Notes under the pieces: model-generated
What the model saw: only the letters and a program-made list of their open reading frames with translations
Databases searched by the model: none
What the model was told of the DNA's origin: nothing
Position numbers and translations under genes: made by a program
In this document: positions 31,037-55,800 of the stretch, one piece after another
Numbering within the stretch: the first letter of the stretch is position 1
Layout: the number at the start of each line of letters is the position of its first letter
From: a virus
DNA: 64,000 bases
Reading direction: 5' to 3' (one strand)
IMG/VR virus record: IMGVR_UViG_3300025872_000036
Coordinates: 1 to 64,000 of that record

Positions 31037-32956
31037 ATGAGTAATTCACTACCGACGCAATATCAGTCGTTCATCCACCTTTCGCGCTATTCAAGATGGT
31101 TACCAGAAAAGAATAGACGCGAAAATTGGTTTGAGACTGTTGGCAGATACTTTGATTTCTTTGAAGATCATCTAAAGCAACATTGCAATTACAAGGTAAA
31201 GCCAGAAGAGCGTCGTGAACTGGAAGACGCAGTTCTTAGCCTAGAGATCATGCCATCAATGCGATGCCTCATGACTGCAGGTGAAGCATTGTCTCGCGAG
31301 AATGTTGCTGGATACAATTGCTCATACGTTGCTGTTGACTCGCCTCGTTCGTTTGACGAAATCCTATACATTCTCATGAATGGAACTGGTGTTGGTTTCT
31401 CCGTCGAGCAAAAGTTCACCGATCAGCTTCCGATCATTGCTGAAGATTTCTATGAGTCCGACACCACTGTCGTCGTTGGTGATTCAAAACTTGGTTGGGC
31501 CAAGGCTCTGAAGGAAATCATTCATCTTCTCTATGGTGGTCAGATTGCTCGCTGGGATGTATCAAAGGTCAGACCCGCAGGCGCACCACTCAAGACATTT
31601 GGTGGTCGTGCATCTGGTCCAGAACCACTTGTCTCTTTGTTTGAATTCGTCACACGCATCTTCAAGAATGCTGCTGGTCGCAAGCTGACATCTCTTGAAT
31701 GCCATGACATTGTCTGCAAGATCGCCGAGATCGTTGTCGTTGGTGGTGTTCGTCGTTCTGCACTCATTTCATTGTCAGATCTTTCTGATGATGGTATGCG
31801 TACTGCAAAGAGTGGCATGTGGTGGGAAAACAATGCACAGAGAGCATTGGCCAACAATTCATTCGTTGCAAAGCGTAAGCCAGACATGTCAGTATTCATG
31901 AAGGAATGGTTTGCGCTGTATGAGTCCAAGTCGGGTGAGCGCGGAATCTTCTCGCGCACAGCATCACAGAATCAGGCCAAGAAGTATGGTCGTCGCAATC
32001 CAGATTTTGACTTTGGTACGAATCCATGCTCCGAGATCATTTTGCGTAATCGCGAGTTCTGCAATCTGACCGAAGTCGTCGTTCGTGCCTTAGACACATC
32101 AGTTGATCTTCATCGCAAGATTCGGCTTGCAACAATTCTTGGCACATGGCAGTCAACGCTGACCAACTTCAAGTATCTTCGCAATACATGGAAGAACAAC
32201 TGCGATGAAGAAAGACTACTTGGCGTTTCATTGACTGGTATCATGGACAATGAAATCACGAATGGCAAGAAGGGTCGTGAAGAACTTCGTTCGGTTCTGA
32301 ATGCTATTCGCAATCGTGCTGTCGAGACGAATGTTGAATGGGCCAAGAAACTTGGCATTCCTCGTTCGGCTGCGATTACATGCGTGAAGCCATCTGGCAC
32401 AGTATCGCAGTTGGTTGATTCGGCATCTGGTATTCATGCGAGACATGCGCCATATTATATTCGCACGGTTCGTGCTGACAAGAAAGATCCATTGGCCAAG
32501 ATGATGGTTGATGCTGGCTTTCCTGTTGAAGACGATGTGATGAAGCCAGAACACACATATGTCTTTGCATTTCCAATGAAGACACCAGAGAATGCAGTAT
32601 TTCGCAAGGACATGACTGCGATTGAGCAGCTTGAACTTTGGCTTGAGTATCAGAGACATTTCTGCGAGCATAAGCCATCTGTCACCATCTCGGTCAAGGA
32701 AGATGAGTGGATGGAAGTTGGTGCATGGGTCTATGAGCATTTTGACGAGATGTCTGGCGTATCGTTCTTGCCATTCTCTGATGCGTCTTATAAGCAAATG
32801 CCATATCAGGATTGCACGAAAGAGCAGTATGAGGCAATGGTAGAAAGAATGCCTAAGAATGTTGATTGGTCAAAGCTGTCAGATTATGAAAAACGTGATA
32901 CAACAACTGGTACACAGGAGTTGAGCTGCACTGCGGGTTCCTGTGAAGTAGTATAA
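31037..32956 (+). CDS. nrdJ: Adenosylcobalamin-dependent ribonucleotide reductase (class II)
   Basis: A 639-aa monomeric-type B12-dependent reductase. Active-site cysteines are Cys95 (YNCSY), Cys331 with Glu333 (NPCSEI) and Cys342 (FCNLTE); the C-terminal redox pair is Cys631/Cys636 (CTAGSC). It starts 10 nt after thyX with AGAGG. It depends on host cobalamin, but not on oxygen. A GIY-YIG gene runs antisense over its last 73 nt, and a terminator hairpin follows its stop. Confidence 0.95.
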   Translation: MSNSLPTQYQSFIHLSRYSRWLPEKNRRENWFETVGRYFDFFEDHLKQHCNYKVKPEERRELEDAVLSLEIMPSMRCLMTAGEALSRENVAGYNCSYVAVDSPRSFDEILYILMNGTGVGFSVEQKFTDQLPIIAEDFYESDTTVVVGDSKLGWAKALKEIIHLLYGGQIARWDVSKVRPAGAPLKTFGGRASGPEPLVSLFEFVTRIFKNAAGRKLTSLECHDIVCKIAEIVVVGGVRRSALISLSDLSDDGMRTAKSGMWWENNAQRALANNSFVAKRKPDMSVFMKEWFALYESKSGERGIFSRTASQNQAKKYGRRNPDFDFGTNPCSEIILRNREFCNLTEVVVRALDTSVDLHRKIRLATILGTWQSTLTNFKYLRNTWKNNCDEERLLGVSLTGIMDNEITNGKKGREELRSVLNAIRNRAVETNVEWAKKLGIPRSAAITCVKPSGTVSQLVDSASGIHARHAPYYIRTVRADKKDPLAKMMVDAGFPVEDDVMKPEHTYVFAFPMKTPENAVFRKDMTAIEQLELWLEYQRHFCEHKPSVTISVKEDEWMEVGAWVYEHFDEMSGVSFLPFSDASYKQMPYQDCTKEQYEAMVERMPKNVDWSKLSDYEKRDTTTGTQELSCTAGSCEVV

Positions 32957-33645
32957 TCATATCGTTCTATGGATAGGCCTCTATGTTTACCTTTTGCATA
33001 GGGGCCTTTTCCTATCTTGTGTCTAACTGCACTATAAGATAAACCAAGTTCATCACACATTTTTCGGGTATCATCAACAATAATTTTCTTTCCATCAATG
33101 AAAGTCCATATTGTTTTTTTACGACCATCTTTTCCATAACCTTTTGTTTTGTATTTGCTAGAATTATTAGAATGTGTTGTTGATTTACCTCTATTGTGGG
33201 CTGGCTTACCTTTATTTTTTGCAGCAACTTTTGCTGCAATTTCGGGTCTTTTCATTGGATTATTTTGCAACATTTTTTCTTTTTGTTGAAGATTGGGCAA
33301 TCCTTTATTCCAAGGCGATCTTCCTAGCGCCTTTTGTCTTATTTTTTCTTTTGTTTGCTCATTGTGTTTCTTTATATAAAATTGACCATTGTTATTTGAT
33401 TGATTATAATAATTTGAATTTTCGGCTGCATTCGCTTCGCGCAGCATTTTTGTTTCAAGATTGTACATGTCTTCAAATAATCCATGTGCAATAATTTCTC
33501 TCCTGAAATTAGATGGATTTATTTGATATTCTTCAAGCATGATTTTAGATGAGCATATGTATCCGTCATCTGAACTACCTTTATGTACACCAATGTACTT
33601 TTTACCGGTAGTTAGATTAGTCCATATATATACGAATGAATCCAT
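32884..33645 (-). CDS. GIY-YIG homing endonuclease, antisense to the nrdJ 3' end
   Basis: A 253-aa protein with an N-terminal GIY-YIG domain (FVYIWTNLTTGKKYIGVHKG), NUMOD-like segments (HNEQTKEKIRQKALGRS and PWNKGLPNL) and a C-terminal DNA-binding HTH-like part (KMCDELGLSYSAVRHKIGKG). ATG 33645 is preferred, since the longer reading lacks domain support. Its last about 24 codons are antisense to nrdJ. A free-standing mobile gene inserted beside nrdJ is the likely explanation. Confidence 0.85.
   Translation of the reverse strand: MDSFVYIWTNLTTGKKYIGVHKGSSDDGYICSSKIMLEEYQINPSNFRREIIAHGLFEDMYNLETKMLREANAAENSNYYNQSNNNGQFYIKKHNEQTKEKIRQKALGRSPWNKGLPNLQQKEKMLQNNPMKRPEIAAKVAAKNKGKPAHNRGKSTTHSNNSSKYKTKGYGKDGRKKTIWTFIDGKKIIVDDTRKMCDELGLSYSAVRHKIGKGPYAKGKHRGLSIERYDYTTSQEPAVQLNSCVPVVVSRFS
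32975..33010 (+). terminator. Rho-independent terminator after nrdJ
   Basis: An 11-bp stem (32975-32985 with 32997-33007, one G-T pair), an 11-nt loop and a T4 run, 19 nt after the nrdJ stop. It lies inside the antisense endonuclease coding sequence. Confidence 0.75.
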
Positions 33646-33730
33646 TGCTGATGGCTCCTCTTTAGCTGTTAGAGTGGTTGGGGCCTCGGAACCCGCGAAC
33701 CACATCTATTTAGCAATTAGGAGATTGTAA

Positions 33731-33930: not shown

Positions 33931-34572
33931 ATGGACGATAATACATCAATTCAATTCAGACTTCGTTTGGCGCAGATCAACGGAATCAATATGAATGAAG
34001 AGCAGCTTTCGGAGACTAACCATCAACGCATAGATGAATCGCTAGATCATATTACGCGCATTACACAAGCATTGAAGGATCCAAATCCAGATGTTCGTAG
34101 AAATGCGATATCTCATCGTTTGGCAACACCTAAACACATAACGCAAGCATTGGAAGATCAATCGTCTGATGTTCGTGTGGCTGCAATCAATCATCCCAAT
34201 GTAACATCAAAACATATTACACATGCATTGAAGGATAAAGTCATGGCCGTGCGTATTGTCGCAATCAAACATCCTAAAGCAACGCCTGAACATATAACGC
34301 AAGCATTGAAAGATGGAGACAGGTATGTTCGTCAGGCGGCTTTGAAACATCATAATGTAACATCTGAACATATAACGCAAGCAGTGAAGGATCCAAATCC
34401 AGATGTTCGTAGAAATGCAATTACTCATCATTTGGCAACACCTGAACATCTTGAGCAAGGAATGAAAGACCCTGATGGAAGTGTGCGAACAGTCGCTAGT
34501 ATAATACATAAAAGAGATCATGATCCTATAACAGACGCCGCGCGGCCACAACATTTGGGTGATGAAGACTAA
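33931..34572 (+). CDS. LRV/HEAT-like helical repeat protein
   Basis: A 213-aa protein. After about 45 residues come six to seven repeats of about 25 aa with the pattern HITQALKDPxPDVRxxAIxH and an (A/V)T(P/S)(E/K) turn. This is the period and consensus of leucine-rich-repeat-variant/HEAT-like solenoids. Two repeats have an identical KDPNPDVRRNAI core, suggesting recent repeat duplication. Presumably a binding scaffold; partner unknown. Confidence 0.7.
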   Translation: MDDNTSIQFRLRLAQINGINMNEEQLSETNHQRIDESLDHITRITQALKDPNPDVRRNAISHRLATPKHITQALEDQSSDVRVAAINHPNVTSKHITHALKDKVMAVRIVAIKHPKATPEHITQALKDGDRYVRQAALKHHNVTSEHITQAVKDPNPDVRRNAITHHLATPEHLEQGMKDPDGSVRTVASIIHKRDHDPITDAARPQHLGDED

Positions 34573-34595: not shown

Positions 34596-35015
34596 ATGGA
34601 TTATGAAAACCCCTGGATCTATCTAGATTCGCCTTTTACTTCTGAACAAATAAGCGACCACATTGGCTTTGTGTATAAAATCACAAACACCAACGATGGG
34701 CGTTTTTATATTGGCAAAAAACTCTTTACTCGTGCTGGACGAAAGAAAGTCAAGGGCAAGACAAAGAAGATCCGTGTGGAATCTGATTGGATGAAATACT
34801 ACTCATCATCTGATGAATTGAATGAAGATGTGCAGAAACTAGGTAAGAATGTGTTTCGCCGTGAGATACTCAGACTATGCAAATCAAAGAGCGAATGCAC
34901 ATACTACGAAGCAAAGTATCAATTTGAGTTGTCCGTGTTGCTTGTGAATACATATAACAAATGGATTCAATGCAAGATCAGAAGAAATACACAATTGAGA
35001 ATTGAACATGAATAA
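34596..35015 (+). CDS. Small GIY-YIG nuclease-like protein
   Basis: A 139-aa protein with a GIY-YIG core (GFVYKITNTNDGRFYIGKK), a downstream Arg in FRREILRLCKS and a Glu in YYEAKYQFE, the order of catalytic residues in this family. No NUMOD domains, so it could be a resident phage nuclease rather than a homing enzyme. It overlaps the radical SAM gene by 8 nt. Confidence 0.75.
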   Translation: MDYENPWIYLDSPFTSEQISDHIGFVYKITNTNDGRFYIGKKLFTRAGRKKVKGKTKKIRVESDWMKYYSSSDELNEDVQKLGKNVFRREILRLCKSKSECTYYEAKYQFELSVLLVNTYNKWIQCKIRRNTQLRIEHE

Positions 35016-36342
35016 ATTTTTGCAATCTTCAGTATTTTGTAGTAGACCCTTCACTTCTTTATATATTGCAACTGACGGCACTTTTAGATTTTGCTGTGTA
35101 GAAACGCATAATTCTTTAGAAAGCATATCTTTAAAAAACAATATAACAAACACTGATCTGTGTGAACTTTGGAATTCTTCAACCTATCAAAATTTTAGAT
35201 CTAAATTTCTAAATGATATTCAACCAGATGCATGTCAAAATTGTTTCAAATTGACACAAAAGTCGTGTGATGGGAAACATTATCAATCAAATGGTGCAAG
35301 AAGGTTTTTTGATTCGCAATTGGGCATAAACTTTCAAAATTATAATCCCGCAATGGATTTGAGTTCAATAACTTTTATTGAATTGTGGTTTTCAAACAAA
35401 TGTAATTTGAAATGTAGAATGTGTAATCCAAAACACACAAATCAATTGGTTGATGATTGGAATGATATTTTTCAATCAAACAAAGGTATGCAAGAATTAC
35501 ATTCTTTTTTGAGCGATCAAGAAAAAGAGCAACTAAAAAAAAGAAGTTGGGACGATGATGAAAGATCTTGGATAAATTTGTCGAATTTCGTAAAAAAAAT
35601 ATATGACAATAATCCCGATCAAATCATTACCTTTGTCTTATCTGGCGGTGAACCCATGATATGTGAGGGTATGTATAAATTTTTTAATTTTGTGATTGAA
35701 CATGGTATTTCAAAGAATATCATATTGAGATATAATACAAATCTTACAGTTCTTCCAAACAAAATGTTGGAATATTGGAAATATTTTAAAGTGGTAAATT
35801 TATCAATTAGCCTAGATGGTTATGATCATGTAAATGACTACATAAGATATCCTTCTAAGTGGAACAAAATAGTTTCAAATATAGATTATGCTAATGAATT
35901 ATCCAATGAAATCAATATTCGAGCCCAAATTAAACCAACAGTACAAGCATATAATATATTATCCATAACGGAATTATATGAATGGATGTTGAATAAATCT
36001 TTTAATAATTATCCATCAAAAGGAAAAAAGTATAATCATATAATGTTTTATAAATTAAATGATCCACTTACAGGTCCTGAAATATTTGATATACAAGTTT
36101 TGCCTAAAAAATTAAAAGATATATCAACTAAAAGATTATTATCTTTTCTAGAAAAAAATAAAAATAATAATCATATAATAGATACAAACATTTATGAAAG
36201 CGGTATAAATTTGATAAAATATCTTTATTCAAAAGACAAAACTCATTTATTTACAAAATTTATAGAAACTACAAAATATTTTGATAAAAAAAGAAATCAA
36301 AATATTTTAAATATTATGCCAGAACTTAAAGAACTATATTGA
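35008..36342 (+). CDS. Twitch/SPASM-type radical SAM protein
   Basis: A 444-aa protein. The radical SAM motif CNLKCRMC (CxxxCxxC) is in WFSNKCNLKCRMCNPKH, followed by VLSGGEPMICEG, the SAM-binding GGEP. An upstream Cys cluster (CCVE, CQNC, KSC) could hold an auxiliary iron-sulfur cluster. ATG 35008 is used; the preceding TTG is unlikely. First gene of a packed, very AT-rich cassette, so it probably carries out the key radical step of that pathway. The substrate is unknown. Confidence 0.88.
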   Translation: MNKFLQSSVFCSRPFTSLYIATDGTFRFCCVETHNSLESISLKNNITNTDLCELWNSSTYQNFRSKFLNDIQPDACQNCFKLTQKSCDGKHYQSNGARRFFDSQLGINFQNYNPAMDLSSITFIELWFSNKCNLKCRMCNPKHTNQLVDDWNDIFQSNKGMQELHSFLSDQEKEQLKKRSWDDDERSWINLSNFVKKIYDNNPDQIITFVLSGGEPMICEGMYKFFNFVIEHGISKNIILRYNTNLTVLPNKMLEYWKYFKVVNLSISLDGYDHVNDYIRYPSKWNKIVSNIDYANELSNEINIRAQIKPTVQAYNILSITELYEWMLNKSFNNYPSKGKKYNHIMFYKLNDPLTGPEIFDIQVLPKKLKDISTKRLLSFLEKNKNNNHIIDTNIYESGINLIKYLYSKDKTHLFTKFIETTKYFDKKRNQNILNIMPELKELY

Positions 36343-36367
36343 TTTGAACTTGTTGTGTGATTAAATC

Positions 36368-37621
36368 ATGAATAAAGACATACACGGATATTATGTAGTA
36401 AACAATCAAAAATTTCATTCTAAAGTTCAAGCACTAATTTGTGCATCTAAACTACTCAATAAAATAAATGAAAAAATTAGTGAATCAAGTTTCAAGATAG
36501 AAGATCCTAAAATTTTGATAAAATGGAATTTTAATGATGAGGTTTTTCAAGCGTATAATTGGAAAATTGAACCAGAAGAAGATCTAGATACTCTCTATCA
36601 CAGAAGAGCACTACAACTTAGACAAAAATATGATCATATTATTGTTTATTATAGTGGTGGTTCTGATAGTCATAATATGATAATGTCTTTTTTAAATCAA
36701 AATTTATTCATAGATGAGATCATTGTTCATCATGTAAATTCTGGAATAAAAATTCTTGAAAATTTAGAAATGAGTAATGTTGATGCAAGAATACAACCTT
36801 TAACTGAGACAAAACTGCAATTATTTCCCAGATTAAAAGAAATATCGAGTTTATCTCCAAAAACAAAGATAAAGATATTTGATACGACCAATCACACGAT
36901 TGAAAACTTTTCAAACAAGCAAGACGGAAGCTGGGTATTGAACGTTAGAGAAGAGTTGAATCCCATAGATTCCGCAAAATATAATTTTGTTTCTTTTGAT
37001 GAATACAAGACAATTGTTGAAAAGAATGAAAAAATAGGAATACTGGTTGGCCTTGATAAGCCAAGATTAAAGATTAGAAATAAAAAAATACATTTGTGTT
37101 TTATAGATAGAACCTACAACATGAATTTATTTTATCCTGAAATAGAAAAATACTCAAACGCTCAAATTGAATTTTTTTATTCTAGTCCTGATGCATGTGA
37201 TTTGATTTGTAAACAATCACATGCATTAAAAAAATGGGTTTTGTCTTCCAAACAAAATATATTGTCATTAACTGAAGATTATGAACCAGATTTCTTTGAA
37301 AAAACAAAAGAGAAAATATTAACATTAAATAGACTCTCCAGACTCTTTTTTGAAGAAAACGCAAGACTTTTATTGTATCCAAATACTTGGAAAAAAGATT
37401 GGTTTCAAGCAAAGAAATCAACTCTAAATTGGAATTCGGAAGCGGATCTTTGGTTTCATAATCGCTTCGATGCAAATTCTTTGCATGGATCTTGTTGGAG
37501 AAATTCGATCAGATATGTAAGACAAAGAATTAATGAACAGTTTTTGGTAAAGTTTGATGATACAACAGGATATGATGGTTTTTGTGAGTATTCAAAATAT
37601 TATGAAATAGGAAATATTTAA
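36368..37621 (+). CDS. PP-loop ATP-pyrophosphatase-like protein, copy 1
   Basis: A 417-aa protein with a PP-loop (IIVYYSGGSDSHNMI, near residues 94-108) of N-type ATP pyrophosphatases, which activate a substrate by adenylation before amide, thiol or nitrile formation. It shares the layout (RAxQxRxxYDxxVxxYSGG and a later KQ-H pattern) with the next protein, so the two are paralogs. Its stop overlaps the next start (TAATG). It belongs to the same cassette as the radical SAM protein. Confidence 0.8.
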   Translation: MNKDIHGYYVVNNQKFHSKVQALICASKLLNKINEKISESSFKIEDPKILIKWNFNDEVFQAYNWKIEPEEDLDTLYHRRALQLRQKYDHIIVYYSGGSDSHNMIMSFLNQNLFIDEIIVHHVNSGIKILENLEMSNVDARIQPLTETKLQLFPRLKEISSLSPKTKIKIFDTTNHTIENFSNKQDGSWVLNVREELNPIDSAKYNFVSFDEYKTIVEKNEKIGILVGLDKPRLKIRNKKIHLCFIDRTYNMNLFYPEIEKYSNAQIEFFYSSPDACDLICKQSHALKKWVLSSKQNILSLTEDYEPDFFEKTKEKILTLNRLSRLFFEENARLLLYPNTWKKDWFQAKKSTLNWNSEADLWFHNRFDANSLHGSCWRNSIRYVRQRINEQFLVKFDDTTGYDGFCEYSKYYEIGNI

Positions 37622-38895
37622 TGATCGATAAAGATAATCCGTACTATTATTACTATAGTAAAAACAACACGACATATTTAAGTAAATTTGATGTGCTTAA
37701 GTCTGAACCGGATGTGTTTTCAAAAACAAGAATATTTTTTCATATTCCAAATATTGAAAAATCGTTTAGTGAAATGAATTTATATGAAGAGCCAATTGAA
37801 GATCTACAAAAACTTTACTTGGATAGAGCGATTCAAATAAGAAATAACTATGATTACGTTGTGTTGTTTTATAGTGGCGGCGCTGACAGTCATTGCATAC
37901 TAGAAACTTTTATGTTAAATAATATTTTTTTAGATGAAATTGTAATATTTGATATGTTTGATACTACAACAAAAAAACAAATAGAAATTGAAGATAGTGA
38001 AAAATTTTTATATTTGAATGCTGAAGGTCGCGGTCATGAAATTGAAAAATCAGCAATACCTTTGGCAAAGTATTTTGTTGAGAATTTTTCACCACGCACT
38101 AAAATAACTTATTTTCCTAAAATGCAAGAAGAGCATCTTCGTTTTTGGAACAATTTGAGTAAAAATAGTTTTCATGAGAATCTAGATTCAAACGTTACAG
38201 AGTTGATTATAAATAGACCTGTTTTTCGTATTAGAGACACAAATGTCTTCAATCCAGATTGGAAAAAACTAAAACAAAATAAAAAAGTTGTTCATCTCTG
38301 GGGAAGAGAAAAACCAGCAATTCGTTATGATGATCATGGGTTTTATTTTTTCTTCAACGATTCTTTATTTCACACCACATTTGATAATAAATATGATCTA
38401 ACAACAGACGGTCTACCAACATATCATGAATATTTTCATATACATCCAAGTTCCGCAAAATTGTTTTTAAAACAAGCACACATGTTGGTTAATAAATTAC
38501 CGAAAAGTTTTTTTTATGAAGATAAAAAAATGATATTAGATACAAGATATTACCAAAATAAAGTTTCTGATATCATTTACAATTTTAAAGTAAAATTACC
38601 ATATCAAGGATTAAAATCTGAAGATCTATTTTTTGGCTATAAAAATAATCCAAACAATTATCCAAATTTTAAAAAAATTGTTGAACACGCAGGAATAAGA
38701 GCAATACAAGCATGGCCAAGCATTATGAAATTTTTCATTGACAATAAGAACTTGACTGCAATTGAAAATCATGATAACTTTAAAAAGTTTATCTATGATA
38801 ATTTTTTTATACAGACAAAAAACAAGAGTTTTAATGTGTTTAATGATTTAACAACTTTGTGCATAACTAACAAATTTTATTTTAAAAAATGCTAG
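37621..38895 (+). CDS. PP-loop ATP-pyrophosphatase-like protein, copy 2
   Basis: A 424-aa paralog of the previous gene, with YVVLFYSGGADSHCIL as PP-loop. The C-terminal halves are aligned (SPDACDLICKQSHAL versus HPSSAKLFLKQAHML). The two copies may form a heteromer or act on successive substrates. It overlaps the TctA start by 7 nt. Confidence 0.8.
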   Translation: MIDKDNPYYYYYSKNNTTYLSKFDVLKSEPDVFSKTRIFFHIPNIEKSFSEMNLYEEPIEDLQKLYLDRAIQIRNNYDYVVLFYSGGADSHCILETFMLNNIFLDEIVIFDMFDTTTKKQIEIEDSEKFLYLNAEGRGHEIEKSAIPLAKYFVENFSPRTKITYFPKMQEEHLRFWNNLSKNSFHENLDSNVTELIINRPVFRIRDTNVFNPDWKKLKQNKKVVHLWGREKPAIRYDDHGFYFFFNDSLFHTTFDNKYDLTTDGLPTYHEYFHIHPSSAKLFLKQAHMLVNKLPKSFFYEDKKMILDTRYYQNKVSDIIYNFKVKLPYQGLKSEDLFFGYKNNPNNYPNFKKIVEHAGIRAIQAWPSIMKFFIDNKNLTAIENHDNFKKFIYDNFFIQTKNKSFNVFNDLTTLCITNKFYFKKC

Positions 38896-40189
38896 AAATT
38901 ATATTTTCCCTATTATTGGGTATTTTTGTCGGAATACTTGTTGGATTAGCGCCTGGTGTTGGAATAACAACTTCAGTCGTTTTCATGTATGGTTTTCTCA
39001 TAGATCAGAGTTTATTGTTCAATATAATTTTTTATTCTACTCTTTTGAGCACAACACAATATTTTGGTAGTATCCCCACTTTGATATTAGGTGTTCCGGG
39101 AGAAACAACTGGACTACCATTGATGAAATTGAGAGAACAAATAATAAACGAAAACAAGTTGGAAGATGTATTATTCGGAACATCAATAGGAAGTTTTTTT
39201 GCCGCCATCTTTTCTTGTATTCTATGTTGGTATATAATTGTAAATTTTTCAAATGTACTATTCTATCTAAAAACTTATATGGTTTTGATATTTTCAGCTA
39301 TAGGTTTTATACTATCAATTGTTTTTAGTGACAACAAATTATACCAGTCTTTTTTATTTTTTGTATTTGGCTGGTTGTGTTCAAAAATAGGATTTAATAT
39401 ACAAACAAGAGAAGAGTTCTTGACTTTTAATAACATTTATCTATTTGGCGGATTGCCAACAATATCAGTCATCTTTGGCATTTATGGAATACCAAAAATA
39501 ATAGATTTTTTTAGTATCAATAAGATTGTTTTTAAGTATGATAATAATGTAAATTCTAGAAAAAAAATAATATGGGAAAACAAATTTGTAATTTTTAGAT
39601 CTTCAATTATTGGATTTTTTTCCGGATTGATACCTTTTTGCGGAAATTACATGAGTAGTTTCATAGCATTTTTTATACAAAAAAAGATCGACTCTAAAAA
39701 TTTTGTGGCTCAGGCAATAAGTTCTGAAACAGCAAACAATTCAGGATACATAGCCGTTCTTTTTCCGTTGTTGGCGGTAGGAGTTGCGATGACACCAACT
39801 GAATATATTTTTTGGATATTCTTGAGCAAGGAAACATATCAATAAGCAAAAGCAATGTAAACGAAATACTGTTTACAATTTTTATAACCTTAATGGTTGC
39901 AAATATAGTCTGCATGTTTTTTTCTTGGAAAACAATCAAATTTATCATGTCTTTCTATCAAAAAATTCATCTACTTGTTCCACTGTTTTTTATTGCTTTT
40001 GGTATTTTTACGATATATAATGCTGGTGTTCAATACTCACAAGAGATCTATTATTTGATAACTTTTTGTGTTTTTTCATTAATTGGTTTCGTGTTTAGAA
40101 GAAAAGACATGATACCATTTATTTTTGCATTCTTGCTGCAAAACAACATAGAGAATGCATTGATATATACTAAAGCATTGTATTTTTGA
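38889..40189 (+). CDS. TctA-like permease, split by a frameshift near nt 39805
   Basis: Large membrane subunit of a tripartite tricarboxylate transporter (TTT). The first frame (38889-39845) has the TctA N-terminal LLGIFVGILVGLAPGVGITT and many membrane helices, then runs out of frame. The remaining TctA C-terminal helices, ending FLLQNNIENALIYTKAL, continue in the -1 frame to 40189 (visible from 39812). The switch lies at a T6 run (about 39803-39808); one extra T would restore one 430-aa reading frame (EYIFLDILEQGNIS). So this is either a broken gene, slippage, or a homopolymer sequencing error. A TctC-like binding protein follows; no separate TctB is visible. Confidence 0.75.
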
Positions 40190-40201
40190 ATGAGGATTAT
40201 T

Positions 40202-41074
40202 ATGCGTAGATTGATTTTTACCACAATTTGCTTGCTATTGGCATCACTAAACGCATTTGCACAAGAAATACTTCTTGTAAACACTGGATCTCTTACAGGA
40301 AATGTGATGTTTTATGCCAAAGAGACATCAAAAGTTCTAGAACAAAACAACATGAAACATTCGATAAAGACAACAGGAGACAACTGTGCTTTGGGAAAAA
40401 TGCTTTGGGATAAGTCTAAAGATCCAACTTTGTTTTTTACAGGAAACAATTCCGGAAACTTGGATAAAAACATAGAAAACTGTTTCATTAATCCAACCAA
40501 CGAAAATCTTTTCTATTGGATACTGTCGTCTCCGTTTTATTTTTGTTCAAGCGGACCTGACGGTAAGACACTACAAGACTTTGTAAAGTCCGGCACATCA
40601 CATAAAGTAGTAACTGACATAATGCCAGAAATAGATGATATTTTTCAAGAAATAGACAAGAGACTAAACATAAAGACTAGATTGGTAAAAGTTGGAAACA
40701 ACGGAACAAACATATCTGTTAATATGGCCAAATCAAAAGAAGTTGATTTTACTTTTAAATCGGGCAAACTTGTTTCAAGTCAAACCGGCGGCAATTGCTT
40801 TTTCTCAACCAAAAGCACAAAGACGATAAAGACTCCTAATGAATTGTGGAACACATCTGACATATCGTTTTTGTCTTCTGATTTCTTTATAATGGGAAAA
40901 AACTTCAAAGCAAACGAAAAAGATGTAATCGTTTCATTAATTCAAAAAGCATGGAATGATAAACCATGGACAGAACTGCGAGTAAAAAGAGAACATGATG
41001 ACGACATAGTTTCGTTTTCTTCAATCTCGGAGTACAAAACAAAAATTGACATGTTACTCAAATCTTTGAGATAA
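40202..41074 (+). CDS. Periplasmic TctC-like substrate-binding protein
   Basis: A 290-aa protein with a signal peptide (MRRLIFTTICLLLASLNAFA, cut before QEI). ATG 40202 has GAGG upstream; ATG 40190 is an alternative. The mature part begins ILLVNTGSLTGNVMFYA, similar in layout to Bug/TctC receptors, and it directly follows the TctA gene. Sequence similarity to TctC is weak, so the call rests partly on position. Confidence 0.65.
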   Translation: MRRLIFTTICLLLASLNAFAQEILLVNTGSLTGNVMFYAKETSKVLEQNNMKHSIKTTGDNCALGKMLWDKSKDPTLFFTGNNSGNLDKNIENCFINPTNENLFYWILSSPFYFCSSGPDGKTLQDFVKSGTSHKVVTDIMPEIDDIFQEIDKRLNIKTRLVKVGNNGTNISVNMAKSKEVDFTFKSGKLVSSQTGGNCFFSTKSTKTIKTPNELWNTSDISFLSSDFFIMGKNFKANEKDVIVSLIQKAWNDKPWTELRVKREHDDDIVSFSSISEYKTKIDMLLKSLR

Positions 41075-41077
41075 GTC

Positions 41078-41596
41078 GTGTTTTTAGAAAAAAATATATG
41101 TGATATTTTTTTGTCTCTTTGTACAAAAGACATTGAAGTTTACAAATCGCATTTTAAAATTCATTACTCAAAAAAAAGAGATTCCACAGACATAGAAAAA
41201 AAAATCTATGAAACTTATGCTAGTCATGATAAATCGTTGTCTACAATATATTATGAATATCAATCTTTGGAATTTAATAAAAAAATACCTAAAGAATTTT
41301 ATGATTACTACAATTTTGTTGAAGAAAAATGTTATATTAAGATATTGAAAATGCCCCCAGGTAATTTCATGATACCGCATTATGACAATTATTCAGGATT
41401 GAAAAACCCCGATGCTGATGCATCTAGATTGTGGATTTCTTTGACCGAGCCAAAGTTTGGTCATCTTTTAATTATTAACGATAGGGTTTTTCATATGGTT
41501 AAACAAGGAACAGCAACTCGTTTTGAAAAAAACGAGTTGCATTTTTCAGCAAATCTTGGTTATGAAGATAGATATGTAATGTTAATAACAGGATAA
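41078..41596 (+). CDS. 2OG-Fe(II)-type hydroxylase-like protein, copy 1
   Basis: A 172-aa protein starting with GTG. IPHYDNYSG provides the HxD iron ligands, ELHFSANLG the distal His, and the following EDRY an Arg. It shares RLWISLTEPKFGH exactly with the next gene. The fold is that of aspartyl/prolyl-hydroxylase-like dioxygenases. It would oxidise the product of the upstream genes or a protein. Confidence 0.75.
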   Translation: MFLEKNICDIFLSLCTKDIEVYKSHFKIHYSKKRDSTDIEKKIYETYASHDKSLSTIYYEYQSLEFNKKIPKEFYDYYNFVEEKCYIKILKMPPGNFMIPHYDNYSGLKNPDADASRLWISLTEPKFGHLLIINDRVFHMVKQGTATRFEKNELHFSANLGYEDRYVMLITG

Positions 41597-41602
41597 CTTT
41601 AA

Positions 41603-42256
41603 ATGCATATTTTTAATGATAGTTTATCGGCAGATATATGCAATAAAATGATTAATGTTTCTGAATTTCATTATCAAAAATACGTTGTAGAATATAAAAA
41701 TCAAAAAAATATAAAATTAATTGTTAAAGATAGAAATGAAGTATCTTCAAAATTAAACGATGAATGGTCTAATTTTTATGCTAAAGATGATAGAGAGATA
41801 CTAATATCAAATGTGTGGCCAACAAAAACATTCAAAGAAATTCAAATAACAATCAATAATACAAAAAATCGCATAAATTTTGGACCATTTTATGTTCATT
41901 ATGAATTAGAAGAAATTTTTAATTTAATTCCGGATAGTTTTTTAAACAAATTCAATATGAGTAAAAATACTGCCCGAATAGTTTTAAGAAAAAACTTACC
42001 TAAAAGAATTTGGCCACCACATAGAGATTATTTTGTCTCAACTTTTTCAAAACCAATAGATAATATTATTAGATTGTGGATTTCTTTGACAGAGCCAAAA
42101 TTTGGTCATGTTCTAATTGTAGAAGACAAAATACTATATCATCTAAAACAAGGTACAGTTGTTACTTGGGATCCAAAAGAATTACATACTGGTGCAAATC
42201 TTGGAATAGAAAATAGATATTTTTTAACCATTGTCGGAGAAAGTATTCCAAAATGA
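41603..42256 (+). CDS. 2OG-Fe(II)-type hydroxylase-like protein, copy 2
   Basis: A 217-aa paralog of the previous gene with PPHRDYF as HxD, the shared RLWISLTEPKFGH, and ELHTGANLG with the distal His. It has a longer N-terminal region than copy 1. ATGA overlap with the carbamoyltransferase gene. Confidence 0.78.
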   Translation: MHIFNDSLSADICNKMINVSEFHYQKYVVEYKNQKNIKLIVKDRNEVSSKLNDEWSNFYAKDDREILISNVWPTKTFKEIQITINNTKNRINFGPFYVHYELEEIFNLIPDSFLNKFNMSKNTARIVLRKNLPKRIWPPHRDYFVSTFSKPIDNIIRLWISLTEPKFGHVLIVEDKILYHLKQGTVVTWDPKELHTGANLGIENRYFLTIVGESIPK

Positions 42257-43839
42257 AATTGTTGGCCATAACCATAGAATCGCACGATTCTAGTGCAACT
42301 TATTTTGACGGAAAAAGATTATTTTTTCATAAAGCCGAGAGAAGTCTTCAATTAAAAAGATGGCCACAATTTGCTAGAATAACTTTGAATGACGGTAAAA
42401 AAATTCCTCTAAACACAAGAGATAAAAGATCTTACGATGTGCTAAAAGGATTTTGGGAGCAAGAAGTAAAAAGAGTGTGGAATATCAATTTTTCCGATAT
42501 TGATCATGTATGGTTTGATGTTCAAGAAACAAATAGAATAGATCACCACGAGAGACATGCACAAGGTATAAATTTATTAAACTACGAAGAACCTTACGAT
42601 GCTTTTGTAATCATGGATGGATTGGGTGGAGATGCTTGGTGGAGCATTTTCAAAAAAGATAAACTATATGTCAAGGGGCACTTTGATAGTTCTGGTGGAT
42701 CCGTTGGAGTTGGTATGATGATTCTTGCTCATCAACTAATAAATGATGTTGAAGCAAGCAAAGTTATGGGATACGTTAGTTATGGAAAAATAAAAGAAGA
42801 TTTGTTAGAACATTTAAGACAAGAATATGATATGCAAAGAGTTGGATCACCCATAACATTTCATAGAAAGTGGCCAGGTGGGTTTTCAGAATTTTTGAAA
42901 AAAATGGATAGTAATGATATTGATATGAATTCTTTTGGATCAAAGGAATACTTTACAAATTTTTTCAATAATCATATGGAAATGTTCAAGATTCCTAAAA
43001 ATGTTAGTTTACAAGAACAATTAGACTATGGTAGAACGATATTTGAGAGATCTGGTGAAATTGTTTTGGAAATATTCAAAAAGTATTTGAAACCAACCGA
43101 TAAAATAGGATATGCTGGTGGGGTTGCTCAAAATGTAATATGGAATACTACTTTAAAAAAACATTTTCCAAAATTAACAGTTGTGCCATATAGTACAGAT
43201 GAAGGTTTGTCTCTGGGTATGATGGAATGCATGAGAAAAAAGTTTAATCTTCCAAAAATGTATTTTGAAAAATATCCTTTCGTAGAAAGTGATCAACATC
43301 CAAATTCAATACCAACAGAAGACACAATTAGTAAAACTGCCGATTTTCTATCTCAAGGAAAAATTGTCGCTTGGTATCAAGAAAACGGCGAGATAGGACC
43401 ACGCGCTTTGGGTAATCGATCTATATTCTTGGATCCTAGAATAGAAGACGGCAAGAATATCATAAACAAAGTAAAGAATAGAGAATCGTTTAGGCCTTTT
43501 GGTGCTTCCATTTTGGAAGAGTACGCAAAAGAATACTTCGATTTGTCATATCCAAATCCATACATGTTATATGTAGGACAAACTCAAAAAGAAAATTTAA
43601 AATGCATTACACACGTTGATGGTACATGTAGAGTTCAAACTGTAAGCAAAGATTTTCCTAGTTTTATAAGACCACTATTAGAAAACTTTTTCAATAAAAC
43701 AGGATGTCCTGTTTTGCTAAATACAAGTTTGAATATTGCAGGAAAACCAATTGCAGGAAAAATAGATGACGCAAAAAAACTTTTTGCTAGTCAACCAATC
43801 GACGTTCTTGTTATAGGAAATGAAATTTATACAAAGTGA
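42253..43839 (+). CDS. NodU/CmcH-type carbamoyltransferase
   Basis: A 528-aa protein that transfers a carbamoyl group from carbamoyl phosphate to a hydroxyl. The N-terminal Kae1-like domain has the metal-site DHHERHAQG and MDGLGGDAWW; the C-terminal YrdC-like domain has GEIGPRALGNRS, RESFRPFGAS, HVDGTCRVQTV and LLNTSLNIAGKPI. All family motifs are present. A likely tailoring step following the two hydroxylases; carbamoyltransferases also occur in cyanophages with unknown substrate. Confidence 0.93.
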   Translation: MKLLAITIESHDSSATYFDGKRLFFHKAERSLQLKRWPQFARITLNDGKKIPLNTRDKRSYDVLKGFWEQEVKRVWNINFSDIDHVWFDVQETNRIDHHERHAQGINLLNYEEPYDAFVIMDGLGGDAWWSIFKKDKLYVKGHFDSSGGSVGVGMMILAHQLINDVEASKVMGYVSYGKIKEDLLEHLRQEYDMQRVGSPITFHRKWPGGFSEFLKKMDSNDIDMNSFGSKEYFTNFFNNHMEMFKIPKNVSLQEQLDYGRTIFERSGEIVLEIFKKYLKPTDKIGYAGGVAQNVIWNTTLKKHFPKLTVVPYSTDEGLSLGMMECMRKKFNLPKMYFEKYPFVESDQHPNSIPTEDTISKTADFLSQGKIVAWYQENGEIGPRALGNRSIFLDPRIEDGKNIINKVKNRESFRPFGASILEEYAKEYFDLSYPNPYMLYVGQTQKENLKCITHVDGTCRVQTVSKDFPSFIRPLLENFFNKTGCPVLLNTSLNIAGKPIAGKIDDAKKLFASQPIDVLVIGNEIYTK

Positions 43840-43846
43840 GGAAAAT

Positions 43847-45418
43847 ATGTTTAAATTATTGACTTTTGTATTTGCTTTTATGATGTTTTTGATTTCACAG
43901 TTGGCACTTGCTCAACCGAGAGATAGAATATTAATTATTGGTGCAAATATTTCTGATGGAAAAACATACGATCCAAGTCGTCAAGCAGATTTAACAACAC
44001 CTCTTACAATTGGAAATGTATACGAGACTTTGGTTACAGCCACATCGGACAATTATGAGGTTCTAAAGCCGGCACTTGCTAAAAAGTGGGAACTTTCAAA
44101 TTCTGGTAAGTCTTGGAGATTTTATCTTCGCGACAATGCTAAGTTTTGGAACGGCGCCCCCGTCACCGCACATGATGTAAAGTTTTCATTTGATAGATTG
44201 AAGAATCTTAAAGATCAGCCAGCGGAATTTGCAGACAACATCAAGGAAATTGTCGTGCTAGACAATAATACTCTTGATATTTTTGTTGTAAATCCACAAG
44301 AATCATTGCTTCCAGTTCTAACAACTGTGTCACTTTCCGTCTTTTCAAAGAGTCAGCTTGAAGCACTCGGTGGCGTTAGTGATGTAACAGCAAAAGACAA
44401 GGATACTGCGACTAAGCATCTTGATGAAAAGTCTTACGGATCTGGTCCATATAGAATGACAAGATGGACAAGAAACGAAGTTGTTGTTCTTGAGCGTAAT
44501 CCATTTTGGCACGAACGTCTACAGTTTGATAGAGTAATCATTCGTCATATAGCTGATGGTGCTGCACAATTTTTGGCTCTTCAGAGAAATGATATTGATA
44601 TTGCATTCAATCTATCAAATGAGCAGCTTGATCTAGCAAAGAGTAGAGATTTTAGAGTTATTTCCGAACCAAGTCTTGATTATGTTTACATGGTTCTTAC
44701 AAATAGTTCTGAGTTGAATGGCGCTCTTGCAAACAAGAACGCAAGACTTGCAATTGCACATGCCATAGATTATGACGGAATCATCAAGAATCTTCTTGGG
44801 GGACATGGTGTAAGACCAGCATCAATTCTTCCAATTGGAATTGGTGGCACAACACAGGAACAAACAGAAAGATTTGGTTACAAACTGGATCTGGAAAAGG
44901 CTAAAAAGTATTTGAGCATGTCAAACAATCCAAACGGATTTGAATTTACATTCGCATATTCAACAACACCAATGTTAAGTGTCAATCCAGGACTGCTGGC
45001 TCAAAAAATGCAGGCAGATCTTGCAAAGATCAACATCAAGATGAATTTGACTCCTATGGATCAATCATCATTGGTAACACAATATAGAACTGCAAAACTG
45101 CAATCAGGTGTCGTGTCATATACGATTGATGCTCTTGATGCTAATCTTTGGACTAGACCCTTTGTTACCAGAATTGCAAAGAGAATGCATTGGGAGCCAT
45201 CAAAAGACTTCGTGAGTCTCGTTGAGATGGCAGCAGTAGAATCCAATGTTGTTCGTAGAAATGAGATGTATGAACAGTATCAAAAAAATATGGTAAATGA
45301 AGCAACTTTCATCAATATTGTTCAACCAACACTCAAGATTGCTACAAATAAGCAATTAAAGAATGTAAACTTGACTGCAGCTGGGTGGTACATGAATCTA
45401 AAAGATGTTAAAAGATGA
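43847..45418 (+). CDS. Family 5 extracellular solute-binding protein (SBP_bac_5)
   Basis: A 523-aa protein with a signal peptide (FKLLTFVFAFMMFLISQLALA, cut before QPRD) and the family pattern: YETLV, LAKKWELSNSGKSWRFYLRD, KFWNGAPVTAHDVKFS and SGPYRMTRW. Normally the periplasmic receptor of a peptide/nickel-type ABC importer. No permease or ATPase is present, so it must use host partners or act alone. ATG 43847 follows GAGGAAA. Its base composition is less AT-rich than the rest of the cassette, which suggests a separate origin. Confidence 0.9.
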   Translation: MFKLLTFVFAFMMFLISQLALAQPRDRILIIGANISDGKTYDPSRQADLTTPLTIGNVYETLVTATSDNYEVLKPALAKKWELSNSGKSWRFYLRDNAKFWNGAPVTAHDVKFSFDRLKNLKDQPAEFADNIKEIVVLDNNTLDIFVVNPQESLLPVLTTVSLSVFSKSQLEALGGVSDVTAKDKDTATKHLDEKSYGSGPYRMTRWTRNEVVVLERNPFWHERLQFDRVIIRHIADGAAQFLALQRNDIDIAFNLSNEQLDLAKSRDFRVISEPSLDYVYMVLTNSSELNGALANKNARLAIAHAIDYDGIIKNLLGGHGVRPASILPIGIGGTTQEQTERFGYKLDLEKAKKYLSMSNNPNGFEFTFAYSTTPMLSVNPGLLAQKMQADLAKINIKMNLTPMDQSSLVTQYRTAKLQSGVVSYTIDALDANLWTRPFVTRIAKRMHWEPSKDFVSLVEMAAVESNVVRRNEMYEQYQKNMVNEATFINIVQPTLKIATNKQLKNVNLTAAGWYMNLKDVKR

Positions 45419-45466
45419 AAAACTATCATGCTCAATAATCAATAAAGATTCATTCAACGGCAACAC

Positions 45467-45474
45467 TATAAATA
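45467..45474 (+). promoter_or_regulatory. T4 late promoter, perfect TATAAATA
   Basis: Perfect late consensus 34 nt before the NUDIX gene at 45509. A late promoter on a NUDIX gene fits the idea that the protein is packaged. Confidence 0.75.
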
Positions 45475-45508
45475 TAACGTCGTGTCAAGCACTTGTCAAG
45501 AGGGAAAT

Positions 45509-45949
45509 ATGAAAACACTTAGGTCTTTTTTACGCGAACAAGACAATGAAAGACAAGCAGCCGGTGCATTGTTCTATGCACAGGACACAGGTAAGTATGG
45601 TATTGCCAAGAGAAGCCAGCATTGCGATTGCCCGCATACATATTCACCAGTAGGTGGTTCAGCTGACACGAACGACAAGGATCTCATGGATACAGTCGTT
45701 CGTGAAGTTGGCGAAGAGATCGGATGCAAGATTACCAGAGATCAGCTCAAGCACATGTATACGGACTATAGCAGACCTAATTTCCAGTATCATACATTTC
45801 TTTGCACGATTCCAAAGCAATCCGAATTCATGCCAAATCTGAATTATGAAAACGATAGATTTGATTGGTTTGGCAAAGACGAGATGCCCAAGAACTTGCA
45901 TCCCGGCTTCTCAAAAATGCTCAAGGATACGCATCACAATCTTCCATAA
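45509..45949 (+). CDS. NUDIX hydrolase with capsid-targeting-type N-terminus
   Basis: A 146-aa protein. MKTLRSFLREQ resembles a capsid-targeting peptide with LRE as the cleavage site. The NUDIX box REVGEEIG follows GGSADTNDKDLMDTVV, with Asp replacing the usual first Glu. Enzymes of this fold hydrolyse nucleoside diphosphate derivatives such as NADH, ADP-ribose or capped RNA. ATG 45509 follows AGGGA; a GTG at 45482 is rejected. Late promoter upstream. Confidence 0.88.
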   Translation: MKTLRSFLREQDNERQAAGALFYAQDTGKYGIAKRSQHCDCPHTYSPVGGSADTNDKDLMDTVVREVGEEIGCKITRDQLKHMYTDYSRPNFQYHTFLCTIPKQSEFMPNLNYENDRFDWFGKDEMPKNLHPGFSKMLKDTHHNLP

Positions 45950-52182: not shown

Positions 52183-52259
52183 GGTCCGTTCGTCTAGTGG
52201 CTTAAGACATCCGCCTGTCACGCGGAAGATCACGGATTCGAATTCCGTACGGATCGCCA
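52183..52259 (+). tRNA. tRNA-Asp (GTC)
   Basis: 77 nt with CCA; loop CTGTCAC; discriminator G73 as usual for Asp. Confidence 0.93.
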
Positions 52260-52263
52260 TTAT

Positions 52264-52338
52264 GGGGGTGTGGCTCAATCGCGGAGCGTTCGCCTGATTA
52301 GCGAAAGGTTGTAGGTTCAAGTCCTACCACCCCTACCA
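52264..52338 (+). tRNA. tRNA-Ile (GAT)
   Basis: 75 nt with CCA; loop CTGATTA; G1-U72 in the acceptor. Confidence 0.92.
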
Positions 52339-52386
52339 ATTGGTGTATAGTAGCATGTAGTTTGTGTAAGTCGTTCGTCCAGAATT

Positions 52387-52469
52387 GGACCGGTCACCGT
52401 AGTGGCGAGCGGCGCAGACTTTTAATCTGCTATTATACATCGTGGGTTCGAGTCCCACCCGGTCCTCCA
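52387..52469 (+). tRNA. tRNA-Lys (TTT)
   Basis: 83 nt with CCA; loop CTTTTAA. The variable region is about 11 nt, longer than usual for Lys. Confidence 0.88.
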
Positions 52470-52474
52470 TTTAT

Positions 52475-52549
52475 AGCCTCGTAGTATAACGGAGAGAACA
52501 TCTGACTACGAATCAGAAGATGAGGGTTCGATTCCTTCCGAGGCTGCCA
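52475..52549 (+). tRNA. tRNA-Arg (ACG)
   Basis: 75 nt with CCA; loop CTACGAA; would need A34-to-inosine editing by the host TadA to read CGC/CGA. Confidence 0.92.
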
Positions 52550-52553
52550 GTTA

Positions 52554-52629
52554 CGGAGAGTTTGATAGCGGCTAATCGACATGCTTTGGGAGCATGGTTT
52601 CGTGGGTTCGAGTCCCACCTCTCCGACCA
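52554..52629 (+). tRNA. tRNA-Pro (TGG)
   Basis: 76 nt with CCA; loop TTTGGGA; C1-G72 start as usual for Pro. Confidence 0.93.
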
Positions 52630-52633
52630 TTTT

Positions 52634-52709
52634 GGATCGTTAGTGAAGCTGGTGCACACGTTCCGCTGAAGACGGAAAGAACTCTGTTCGATTCAGAGAC
52701 GATCCACCA
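52634..52709 (+). tRNA. tRNA-Phe (GAA)
   Basis: 76 nt with CCA; loop CTGAAGA. Confidence 0.93.
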
Positions 52710-52723
52710 TTATGGAGATATAC

Positions 52724-52960
52724 ATGATTGAATTGGAAAATCTTAGTGACATTCAAAAGTCACTATGTGATATTCTTTGGGAACTTGATGGTCCCGATGA
52801 ACTTCAGGCATTTCTCAATGGTCTTCCAGAACGTCTGCGTAGAGATGCTGAATCCATGATTCAGATGATGCTCTTAAATAGTATTGACAAGACGGAAGAT
52901 ACCAAGTATGCTGATGAAATCTTGAGTAAGATACTGAACAAAGACAAGACTACTGATTGA
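52724..52960 (+). CDS. Small acidic hypothetical protein
   Basis: A 78-aa acidic helical protein. ATG 52724 follows GGAG by 6 nt; an in-frame ATG at 52712 is less likely. It is probably transcribed with the tRNAs, since it starts 15 nt after tRNA-Phe, and precedes an HNH gene. Function unknown. Confidence 0.65.
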   Translation: MIELENLSDIQKSLCDILWELDGPDELQAFLNGLPERLRRDAESMIQMMLLNSIDKTEDTKYADEILSKILNKDKTTD

Positions 52961-52977
52961 ATTGAAAGGAGGTAACA

Positions 52978-53535
52978 ATGTCTATCGGACTCAGAACGCT
53001 CGTACTAAATGCGGACTATCATCCAATATCATTGTTTCCTCTGCACACAATTCCAGTAGAGGATGCGGTGACGCGCCTGTTCAATGGCACCTGTCAGCTT
53101 GTATATGAGCATGATCGCAAGATCTTGACGCCAAGTCTGAACATGAAGTGGCCATCGGTCATTGCTCGTATTGACACCAAGCGTGTCAAGGAGCGTGTAA
53201 AGTTGGGCGCTGAAGGTTTGTATTACCGTGATCACGGTCTGTGTGCATACTGCGAAACTCCTTTGACGCTAAAGTGCATCACATTCGATCACGTTGTTCC
53301 AAAGAGCAAGGGTGGAACCTATTCTTGGGACAATCTTGTTTCGGCTTGCAGTACCTGCAATCTGCTCAAGGGCGATTCTCCGCCTGTGGGTAAGTGGGCA
53401 CCAAAGCGTAAGCCATACAAGCCTTCATACTATGACCTGCTTGCTGTAAGAAAGAAGTTTCCGATTCAGATCGATGACGAGAATTGGATTCAGTTCATTG
53501 GTAAGTGGGATGCGCCTGTGGTGGTCAAGAACTAG
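52978..53535 (+). CDS. HNH endonuclease
   Basis: A 185-aa protein with a Zn-HNH core: CAYC, then TFDHVVPKSKGGTYSWDNLV, then CSTCNLLKGD. A strong AAAGGAGG site precedes the ATG. No NUMOD domains and a codon use like its neighbours, so it may be a resident nuclease (host DNA breakdown or packaging-type) rather than a homing enzyme. Confidence 0.88.
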   Translation: MSIGLRTLVLNADYHPISLFPLHTIPVEDAVTRLFNGTCQLVYEHDRKILTPSLNMKWPSVIARIDTKRVKERVKLGAEGLYYRDHGLCAYCETPLTLKCITFDHVVPKSKGGTYSWDNLVSACSTCNLLKGDSPPVGKWAPKRKPYKPSYYDLLAVRKKFPIQIDDENWIQFIGKWDAPVVVKN

Positions 53536-53544
53536 AAATAGTTC

Positions 53545-53573
53545 TTGACTCACCCAACAAGATATAGTATATT
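53545..53573 (+). promoter_or_regulatory. Sigma70-type promoter of the second tRNA block
   Basis: TTGACT, 17-nt spacer, TATATT; predicted start about 3 nt before tRNA-Tyr. Confidence 0.75.
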
Positions 53574-53582
53574 ATGGATTAT

Positions 53583-53675
53583 GGGAGCGTTGGTACTATG
53601 GTGTGTGTGCCTCCTGACTGTAAATCAGGTCCCTTGTGGTAAACGATGCTGGTTCGACTCCGGCCGCTCCCACCA
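53583..53675 (+). tRNA. tRNA-Tyr (GTA)
   Basis: 93 nt with long variable arm and CCA; loop CTGTAAA. Confidence 0.92.
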
Positions 53676-53679
53676 AATT

Positions 53680-53753
53680 GCGTGGTTGGTATATTGATTG
53701 TGCCTCGGCCTTCCAAGCCGATGAAACGAGTTTGATTCTCGTACCACGCTCCA
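53680..53753 (+). tRNA. tRNA-Gly (TCC)
   Basis: 74 nt with CCA; loop CTTCCAA; U73 as usual for Gly. Confidence 0.93.
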
Positions 53754-53758
53754 GTTTT

Positions 53759-53833
53759 GCGGATGTAGCACAGTGGTAGTGCATCACGTTGCCAACGTGA
53801 ATGTCGTGGGTTCGACCCCCATCATCCGCTCCA
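53759..53833 (+). tRNA. tRNA-Gly (GCC)
   Basis: 75 nt with CCA; loop TTGCCAA; U73. Confidence 0.93.
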
Positions 53834-53918
53834 GTTTTTGAGCCTACGCCTAGCGGCGATAGGTCTATCGAGGTTTTCTTGGCTGTACCAGCATAGCAAA
53901 ACAACCAAGACGAGTTTT

Positions 53919-55799: not shown

Positions 55800-55800
55800 C

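Follow-up and report, generated by a model that had tools for sequence, protein, structure and literature searches.

A variable island of a T4-like aquatic phage in which PP-loop enzyme genes adjoin transport genes

The stretch of viral DNA considered here (hereafter the window: 64,000 nucleotides, positions 1 to 64,000 of the 196,948-bp IMG/VR record IMGVR_UViG_3300025872_000036) carries at 35008-45418 a block in which two PP-loop enzyme genes are accompanied by transport and tailoring genes (Table 1). As the initial annotation had it, all nine genes of this cassette are present, collinear on the + strand and mostly overlapping or separated by a few base pairs, and a motif scan found the catalytic motifs intact in all cassette enzymes. 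The terminase of the record is T4-like, with about 59% identity to terminases of Synechococcus and Pelagibacter phages, and indicates no more than a place among the T4-like phages that infect cyanobacteria and SAR11. Sequences were searched in IMG/VR, GTDB and 50,697 GenBank phage records, profiles were taken from Pfam, NCBIfam, PHROGs and PDB, and AlphaFold (AF2) models were compared with solved proteins by Foldseek.

Table 1. Genes and border features of the island, in window coordinates.
Feature	Position	Strand	Evidence or remark
GIY-YIG-type gene	34596..35015	+	Left border of variable slot
Radical S-adenosylmethionine (SAM) protein (rSAM), N-terminal twitch/SPASM-like domain (N_Twi)	35008..36342	+	NF033640 E 4.5e-88; PF04055, PF13186
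PPa, PP-loop protein, viral family PP1	36368..37621	+	SGGSDS motif
PPb, second PP1 paralogue	37621..38895	+	SGGADS motif; AF2 model, Foldseek
TctA permease, first part	38889..39845	+	PF01970 E 3.7e-39
TctA permease, C-terminal part, own open reading frame (ORF)	39812..40189	+	PF01970 positions 338-416, E 0.063
TctC/Bug-type periplasmic solute-binding protein (SBP)	40190..41074	+	AF2 model, Foldseek; N-terminal signal-like helix
2-Oxoglutarate (2OG)-Fe(II) oxygenase OX1	41078..41596	+	PF05118 below cut-off, E 0.067; motif
2OG-Fe(II) oxygenase OX2	41603..42256	+	PF05118 below cut-off, E 0.009; motif
NodU/TobZ-type O-carbamoyltransferase (CarbT)	42253..43839	+	PF16861 E 6.8e-54; phrog_1601 E 1.5e-122
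ATP-binding cassette (ABC) family 5 SBP (SBP5; dipeptide/heme/nickel class)	43820..45418	+	PF00496 E 2.1e-70; PDB matches
Right border element ATTCAACGGCAACACTATAAATATA	45454..45480	+	Also borders other filled alleles
NUDIX-like gene, right flank	45482..45949	+	Assigned from sequence only

The radical SAM gene begins with an ATG at 35008 that overlaps the stop codon of the GIY-YIG-type gene, and its CNLKCRMC motif is intact. A role of the cassette in anti-phage defence was considered and rejected: among its proteins, PADLOC gave only a partial pVip match of the radical SAM protein (E 4.6e-7), for which the NCBIfam viperin model scores 21.9 bits, far below its cut-off of 180. The start of PPb overlaps the stop of PPa, and the two paralogues share 27% identity. 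In both oxygenases, which are paralogous at about 40%, the triad HxD...H and the 2OG-binding R were found by motif scan (HYD at 101, distal LH at about 154, then R in OX1; HRD at 140, distal LH, then R in OX2), and orthologues of OX1 can be found in the related loci L004 and L097. CarbT has the two-domain architecture of a Kae1-like N-terminal part with HxxxH and a YrdC-like C-terminal part (PF02543, PF16861), in which HHERH and DGLGG are intact; it matches phrog_1601 over its full length (528 positions), is about 40% identical to proteins of Synechococcus phages, and has as PDB relatives 7xb6, GdmN, decarbamoylnovobiocin carbamoyltransferase and TobZ, of which TobZ, GdmN and the novobiocin enzyme modify natural products.

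Regarding the transport genes, the assignment of TctA to its family holds (PF01970, with the conserved glycines and the ANN motif kept), but not that of a single intact gene. The frame is lost at a T-run at about 39807-39812, where six T are found here versus seven in two relatives, L003 (near 7354-7362) and L004 (near 4981-4987), in which tctA is one ORF of 433 aa. Since both relatives have seven T and one ORF, a programmed frameshift is unlikely; sequencing error and recent loss cannot be told apart. In the window, tctA and tctC have no ORF for the small TctB subunit between them or next to them; the related locus L014 holds a 104-aa TctB candidate. TctC has no Pfam match and no relative among the GenBank phage records; its model matches Bug27, BugD, TphC and MatC (Foldseek E 3e-10 to 2e-7), solved proteins whose ligands are malate, terephthalate and acids of this kind. 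The N-terminus of TctC, as read from its sequence, is hydrophobic, and a signal-like segment begins most phage TctC genes. PDB profile searches with TctC and PP1 alignments as queries gave nothing significant, and a search with a broad TctC alignment was discarded, the alignment being too divergent. SBP5 has 5u4o, HbpA and DppA as PDB relatives.

The block can be read as an exchangeable island of cargo genes in this aquatic T4-like phage. It occupies a hypervariable slot between the GIY-YIG gene, which is conserved through RRNTQL and followed by allele-specific sequence, and the NUDIX gene. The slot is empty in L016 and L018, where the NUDIX gene lies 39 bp after the GIY-YIG gene, which ends in the right border element itself, and in L092 it holds a nuclease-like gene as its sole gene. 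A T4-late-like TATAAATA is found at 45467-45474 within the right border element. The first eight genes are AT-richer than their surroundings, as had been noticed, with a GC content of 28.8% from rSAM to CarbT (37.4% in SBP5) versus 41.3% upstream and 45.6% downstream, and other alleles behave likewise, filled slots having 27-32% GC versus 37-46% in the flanks. The sharp GC drop and the one frameshift could be taken as signs of an assembly chimera or of host contamination, but two more contigs, 3300021962_000947 and 3300017788_000197, have the locus with both flanks, and a third has an approximately 57%-identical version with both flanks, leaving this explanation a negligible probability. Upstream of the slot, at 33931-34572, lies a HEAT-like tandem-repeat gene whose length and sequence vary strongly among relatives. 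A phosphoribosyltransferase-like gene comes first in the slot, followed by a PP-loop gene, in L008 (1847-2518) and L010 (3088-3777). Just 3' of the slot, IscU-like (PF01592) and IscA-like (PF01521) iron-sulfur assembly genes can be found in some relatives (L089 8165-8858, L090 10374-11067, L091 11154-11847), and not at the corresponding place in the window.

Comparison of alleles gives a split result, in which a PP-loop and Tct core is kept with variable tailoring genes, and co-conservation is partial. The contig 3300021962_000947 (about 97% identity) has rSAM-PPa-PPb-TctA-TctC-SBP5 without OX1, OX2 and CarbT, and 3300017788_000197 has PPb-TctA-TctC-OX1 without rSAM, with a frameshifted PPa and only a remnant of SBP5. 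In 3300042879_004872 (L021/L097) the order is changed to SBP5-PPa-OX-PPb-TctA-TctC-OX1-OX2-CarbT, with all cassette genes other than rSAM kept at 39-69% identity; the radical SAM gene of L097 is on the opposite strand, with 33% identity in the sister contig L019. Further arrangements are TctA-PPb-TctC in L020 and, in L014, a PPb-like gene, a second PP-loop type, a Rieske gene, TctC, the 104-aa protein, TctA, a B12-type radical SAM gene, another PPb-like gene and an ATP-grasp gene. Such variation fits a slot that gathers independently useful auxiliary metabolic genes (for nutrient-binding proteins and single enzymes) without a joint pathway: it is hypervariable, with alleles that have no gene in it or just a nuclease-like one, its cargo is AT-rich in all alleles, and close relatives lack OX1, OX2 and CarbT, or rSAM and SBP5.

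What speaks against such a loose gathering is the behavior of the PP-loop genes beyond this phage. Eight PP-loop proteins were aligned to serve as the family query (A3), which had 336 matching stretches in IMG/VR, whereas two members used as queries found no relative in the GenBank phage records, and two scans of GTDB found relatives only on two small contigs of metagenome-assembled genomes, L095 and L096. The latter (12.7 kb, binned as a Nitrososphaerales archaeon) carries two desaturases, three PP-loop genes, acetyltransferases, CoA-transferase III and TctC, and is probably a misbinned virus with a phage-like island. PPa and PPb have no family match in Pfam, NCBIfam or PDB and no significant match in PHROGs. 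PP1 thus appears, from these sequence searches, to be a PP-loop family essentially confined to phages and absent from Pfam, NCBIfam and PHROGs. The PP-loop motif is retained in 114 of 121 full-length members.

Dereplication left 57 PP-loop loci, and an SBP gene (TctC, DctP or family 5), counted if within the fetched flank, is present at 41 of these versus none of 64 background phage loci (Fisher p ~2e-19), a comparison that is a guide and not a calibrated rate because the background loci were chosen by a GIY-YIG gene and their contigs are shorter on average. At 31 loci the SBP gene adjoins the PP-loop gene directly, at 29 of them on the same strand, with gaps mostly from -56 to +75 bp. With the Pfam TctC model on whole records, 25/45 PP-loop records were positive versus 1/39 background records (p 4e-8), and the single background TctC has a PP-loop match about 340 bp upstream of it. 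Reciprocally, among 19 viral tctA loci left after dereplication, 12 have a PP-loop gene no more than 10 kb away, and three more a radical SAM gene. Across 34 adjacent PP1/TctC pairs, the distance matrices of the two proteins correlate (Mantel r 0.63, a value reached in 0 of 5000 permutations), part of which may come from shared phage ancestry. This linkage in unrelated slots and phages, often with overlapping genes and with co-variation, and the agreement of the reciprocal tctA test, make a collection of independently useful genes rather unlikely.

Other neighbors of the 57 PP-loop loci are a second PP-loop type (29), fatty-acid hydroxylase (16), N_Twi radical SAM (12) and 2OG oxygenase (11) and, more rarely, Rieske (5), desaturase (5), nitronate-monooxygenase-like (4) and carbamoyltransferase (3) genes. 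None of the six DctP (tripartite ATP-independent periplasmic, TRAP-type) SBPs adjoining PP-loop genes (L095 505-1461; L116, L127, L129, L138, L146) appears to have a signal peptide at its start (e.g., MKTIRWVIAHEP), in contrast to TctC, and these starts suggest cytoplasmic binding proteins. In loci of other phages (L186, L187 and L191), N_Twi-type radical SAM genes form clusters of four or five beside TctA, DctP and TctC genes.

N-type PP-loop enzymes (AsnB, NadE, beta-lactam synthetase, LarE) activate their substrate with ATP, releasing pyrophosphate; the substrate is mostly a carboxylate, to which an amine is then added, and sulfur is sometimes transferred. TctC/TctA transporters serve carboxylate uptake. 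It can be hypothesized, with confidence slightly short of even, that the island combines phage-directed carboxylate uptake with an ATP-dependent PP-loop enzyme forming an amide or thio product, followed by exchangeable tailoring. In line with it, besides the PP-loop/SBP linkage, are the carboxylate binders (BugD, TphC, MatC) among the fold matches of TctC, the weak resemblance of the PP1 model to N-type PP-loop ligases and sulfur transferases, the intact active-site motifs and the retention of the set in L097. A secreted TctC-type protein and the phage TctA permease would supply the infected cell with a small carboxylate, and the second, ABC-type SBP would possibly work with a host ABC permease. 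The PP1 enzymes would then use ATP to activate the carboxylate, with release of pyrophosphate, and couple it to a nucleophile, either an amine or sulfur. Tailoring would be added by exchangeable enzymes, here the radical SAM enzyme, 2OG hydroxylases and O-carbamoyltransferase, and in other phages the products of Rieske, fatty-acid hydroxylase, CoA-transferase or acetyltransferase genes; through such exchange the end product would differ from phage to phage while the logic is shared. Gene content, the borders and empty form of the slot, the family assignments by profile or fold, and the linkage and co-variation of PP-loop and SBP genes are observed; the direction of transport, the carboxylate substrate, the adenylation chemistry, the order of steps, the product and the benefit are what we infer from them. 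The import and conversion proposed in the initial annotation can be retained as uptake with ATP-dependent conversion, because PP1 and SBPs of the TTT (tripartite tricarboxylate transporter), TRAP and ABC types are linked far beyond this phage, but not as a fixed nine-step route, because rSAM, the hydroxylases, CarbT and SBP5 vary among close relatives.

Several observations weigh against the uptake-and-ligation proposal. The AF2 model of PPb (pLDDT 77.8, pTM 0.82), in which the SGGxDS loop follows the first strand of the core, gives weak but consistent Foldseek matches to carbapenam synthetase, LarE, NadE (NAD synthetase) and beta-lactam, GMP and asparagine synthetases, the last having been among the relatives suggested from the sequence; the best has E 6e-3 and covers only part of the chain, so that adenylation or ligation by PP1 is a class-level guess. 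The strong structural matches are only to unnamed proteins of uncultured phages, and no beta-lactam, carbapenam or asparagine synthetase profile in Pfam or PDB matches PP1. In addition, 16 of the 57 PP-loop loci have no SBP nearby, the possible share of ancestry in the PP1/TctC co-variation has to be counted, tctA is split in this contig, and close relatives do not consistently retain the tailoring genes and SBP5. Finally, a third PP1 paralogue of the same phage (391 aa; record 128853-129971, L172 8847-10022, outside the window) stands by itself in a group of tail-fibre genes, next to an opposite-strand 2OG oxygenase gene and a gene for a 148-aa protein, an arrangement that is also found in L101, L151 and L163.

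Among other functions for these enzymes, modification of the host envelope or of glycans can be considered, in which PP-loop, 2OG and CarbT enzymes would alter a surface lipid or sugar and so block other phages, the SBPs supplying a building block. The NodU-type carbamoyltransferase and the PF05118-like oxygenases are in line with it (LpxO and OlsC are members of PF05118), as are the fatty-acid hydroxylase and desaturase near other PP-loop loci and the presence in L108 of a UDP-sugar dehydrogenase gene next to PP1-TctC-CarbT. However, no recognised glycosyltransferase or acyltransferase was found in the window cassette with Pfam, NCBIfam and PHROGs, and this allele is without fatty-acid genes, making such a function improbable. 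Still less credit is given to DNA or nucleotide modification, one of the decorations initially envisaged, in which a QueC-like PP-loop enzyme, a QueE-like radical SAM enzyme and CarbT would build a hypermodified base. A companion PP-loop family, PP2, is weakly similar to QueC/ATP_bind_3, and the radical SAM protein has a weak QueE-like PHROG match, but PP2 is absent from the window cassette, the radical SAM protein is far better assigned as N_Twi, and base enzymes of the TGT/DpdA, QueD and thymidylate synthase (ThyA) types were not found in the 197-kb record, which may be incomplete. Modified DNA would also leave the SBPs unexplained, and this function is very improbable.

Elsewhere in the window, 34 tRNA genes lie on a single strand downstream of the island (47902-60024), and an apparent GIY-YIG homing endonuclease gene (32884-33705, - strand) overlaps the end of a class II ribonucleotide reductase gene.

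Phage metabolic genes have mostly been read as single host genes tuning host metabolism. Dozens of distinct virus lineages share the undescribed pairing of a PP-loop gene with that of a nutrient-binding protein, and a recurrent, translationally coupled pairing of a viral ATP-using enzyme with an SBP would imply that virocells run uptake and synthesis chemistry of their own. It is possible, albeit doubtful at this stage, that the island represents an undescribed and, among aquatic T4-like phages, widespread class of biosynthetic islands. In these, a viral PP-loop ligase and its own SBP would let the virocell take up an environmental acid and turn it into allele-specific small molecules. The pairing offers a functional handle on an unnamed protein family, of which IMG/VR contains hundreds of members, and predicts that the ligand of the binding protein should be the substrate of the paired enzyme.

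With regard to known systems, carbamoyltransferases and 2OG oxygenases have been described in cyanophages (PMC3037559), and tctA has been noted, without being given a role, on two viral contigs (PMC4164917, PMC8115048), in the former paper on SUP05-linked contigs. No description of the PP-loop/SBP pairing was found in the literature on phage TTT or PP-loop genes, and the earlier statement that no phage system with such content is described holds within the literature searched, tctA, CarbT and 2OG genes being known singly. The island resembles TctABC or orphan Bug systems by its TctA profile and motifs, TctC fold and signal-like start, but it is phage-borne, is without TctB in the cassette, has a TctC below Pfam detection and is coupled to PP-loop genes; moreover, most phage loci have TctC without TctA. 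PP1 shares the SGGxDS loop and apparently the order of the core fold with the N-type enzymes (beta-lactam/carbapenam, asparagine and NAD synthetases, LarE), but is without a sequence-level match to them and has its own N- and C-terminal regions and conserved GxxKP and KQxH. CarbT, like NodU, TobZ, GdmN and the cyanophage Nol-like carbamoyltransferases (phrog_1601), shows a full-length match and a conserved HHxxH, but is linked here to PP-loop and transporter genes. A further parallel is with the auxiliary metabolic genes of T4-like hyperplastic regions (2OG oxygenases, carbamoyltransferase, PstS), which are likewise swappable metabolic cargo of T4-like phages (PMC3037559); unlike these single host-derived genes, a recurrent module of enzyme and SBP is found here, with a new enzyme family.

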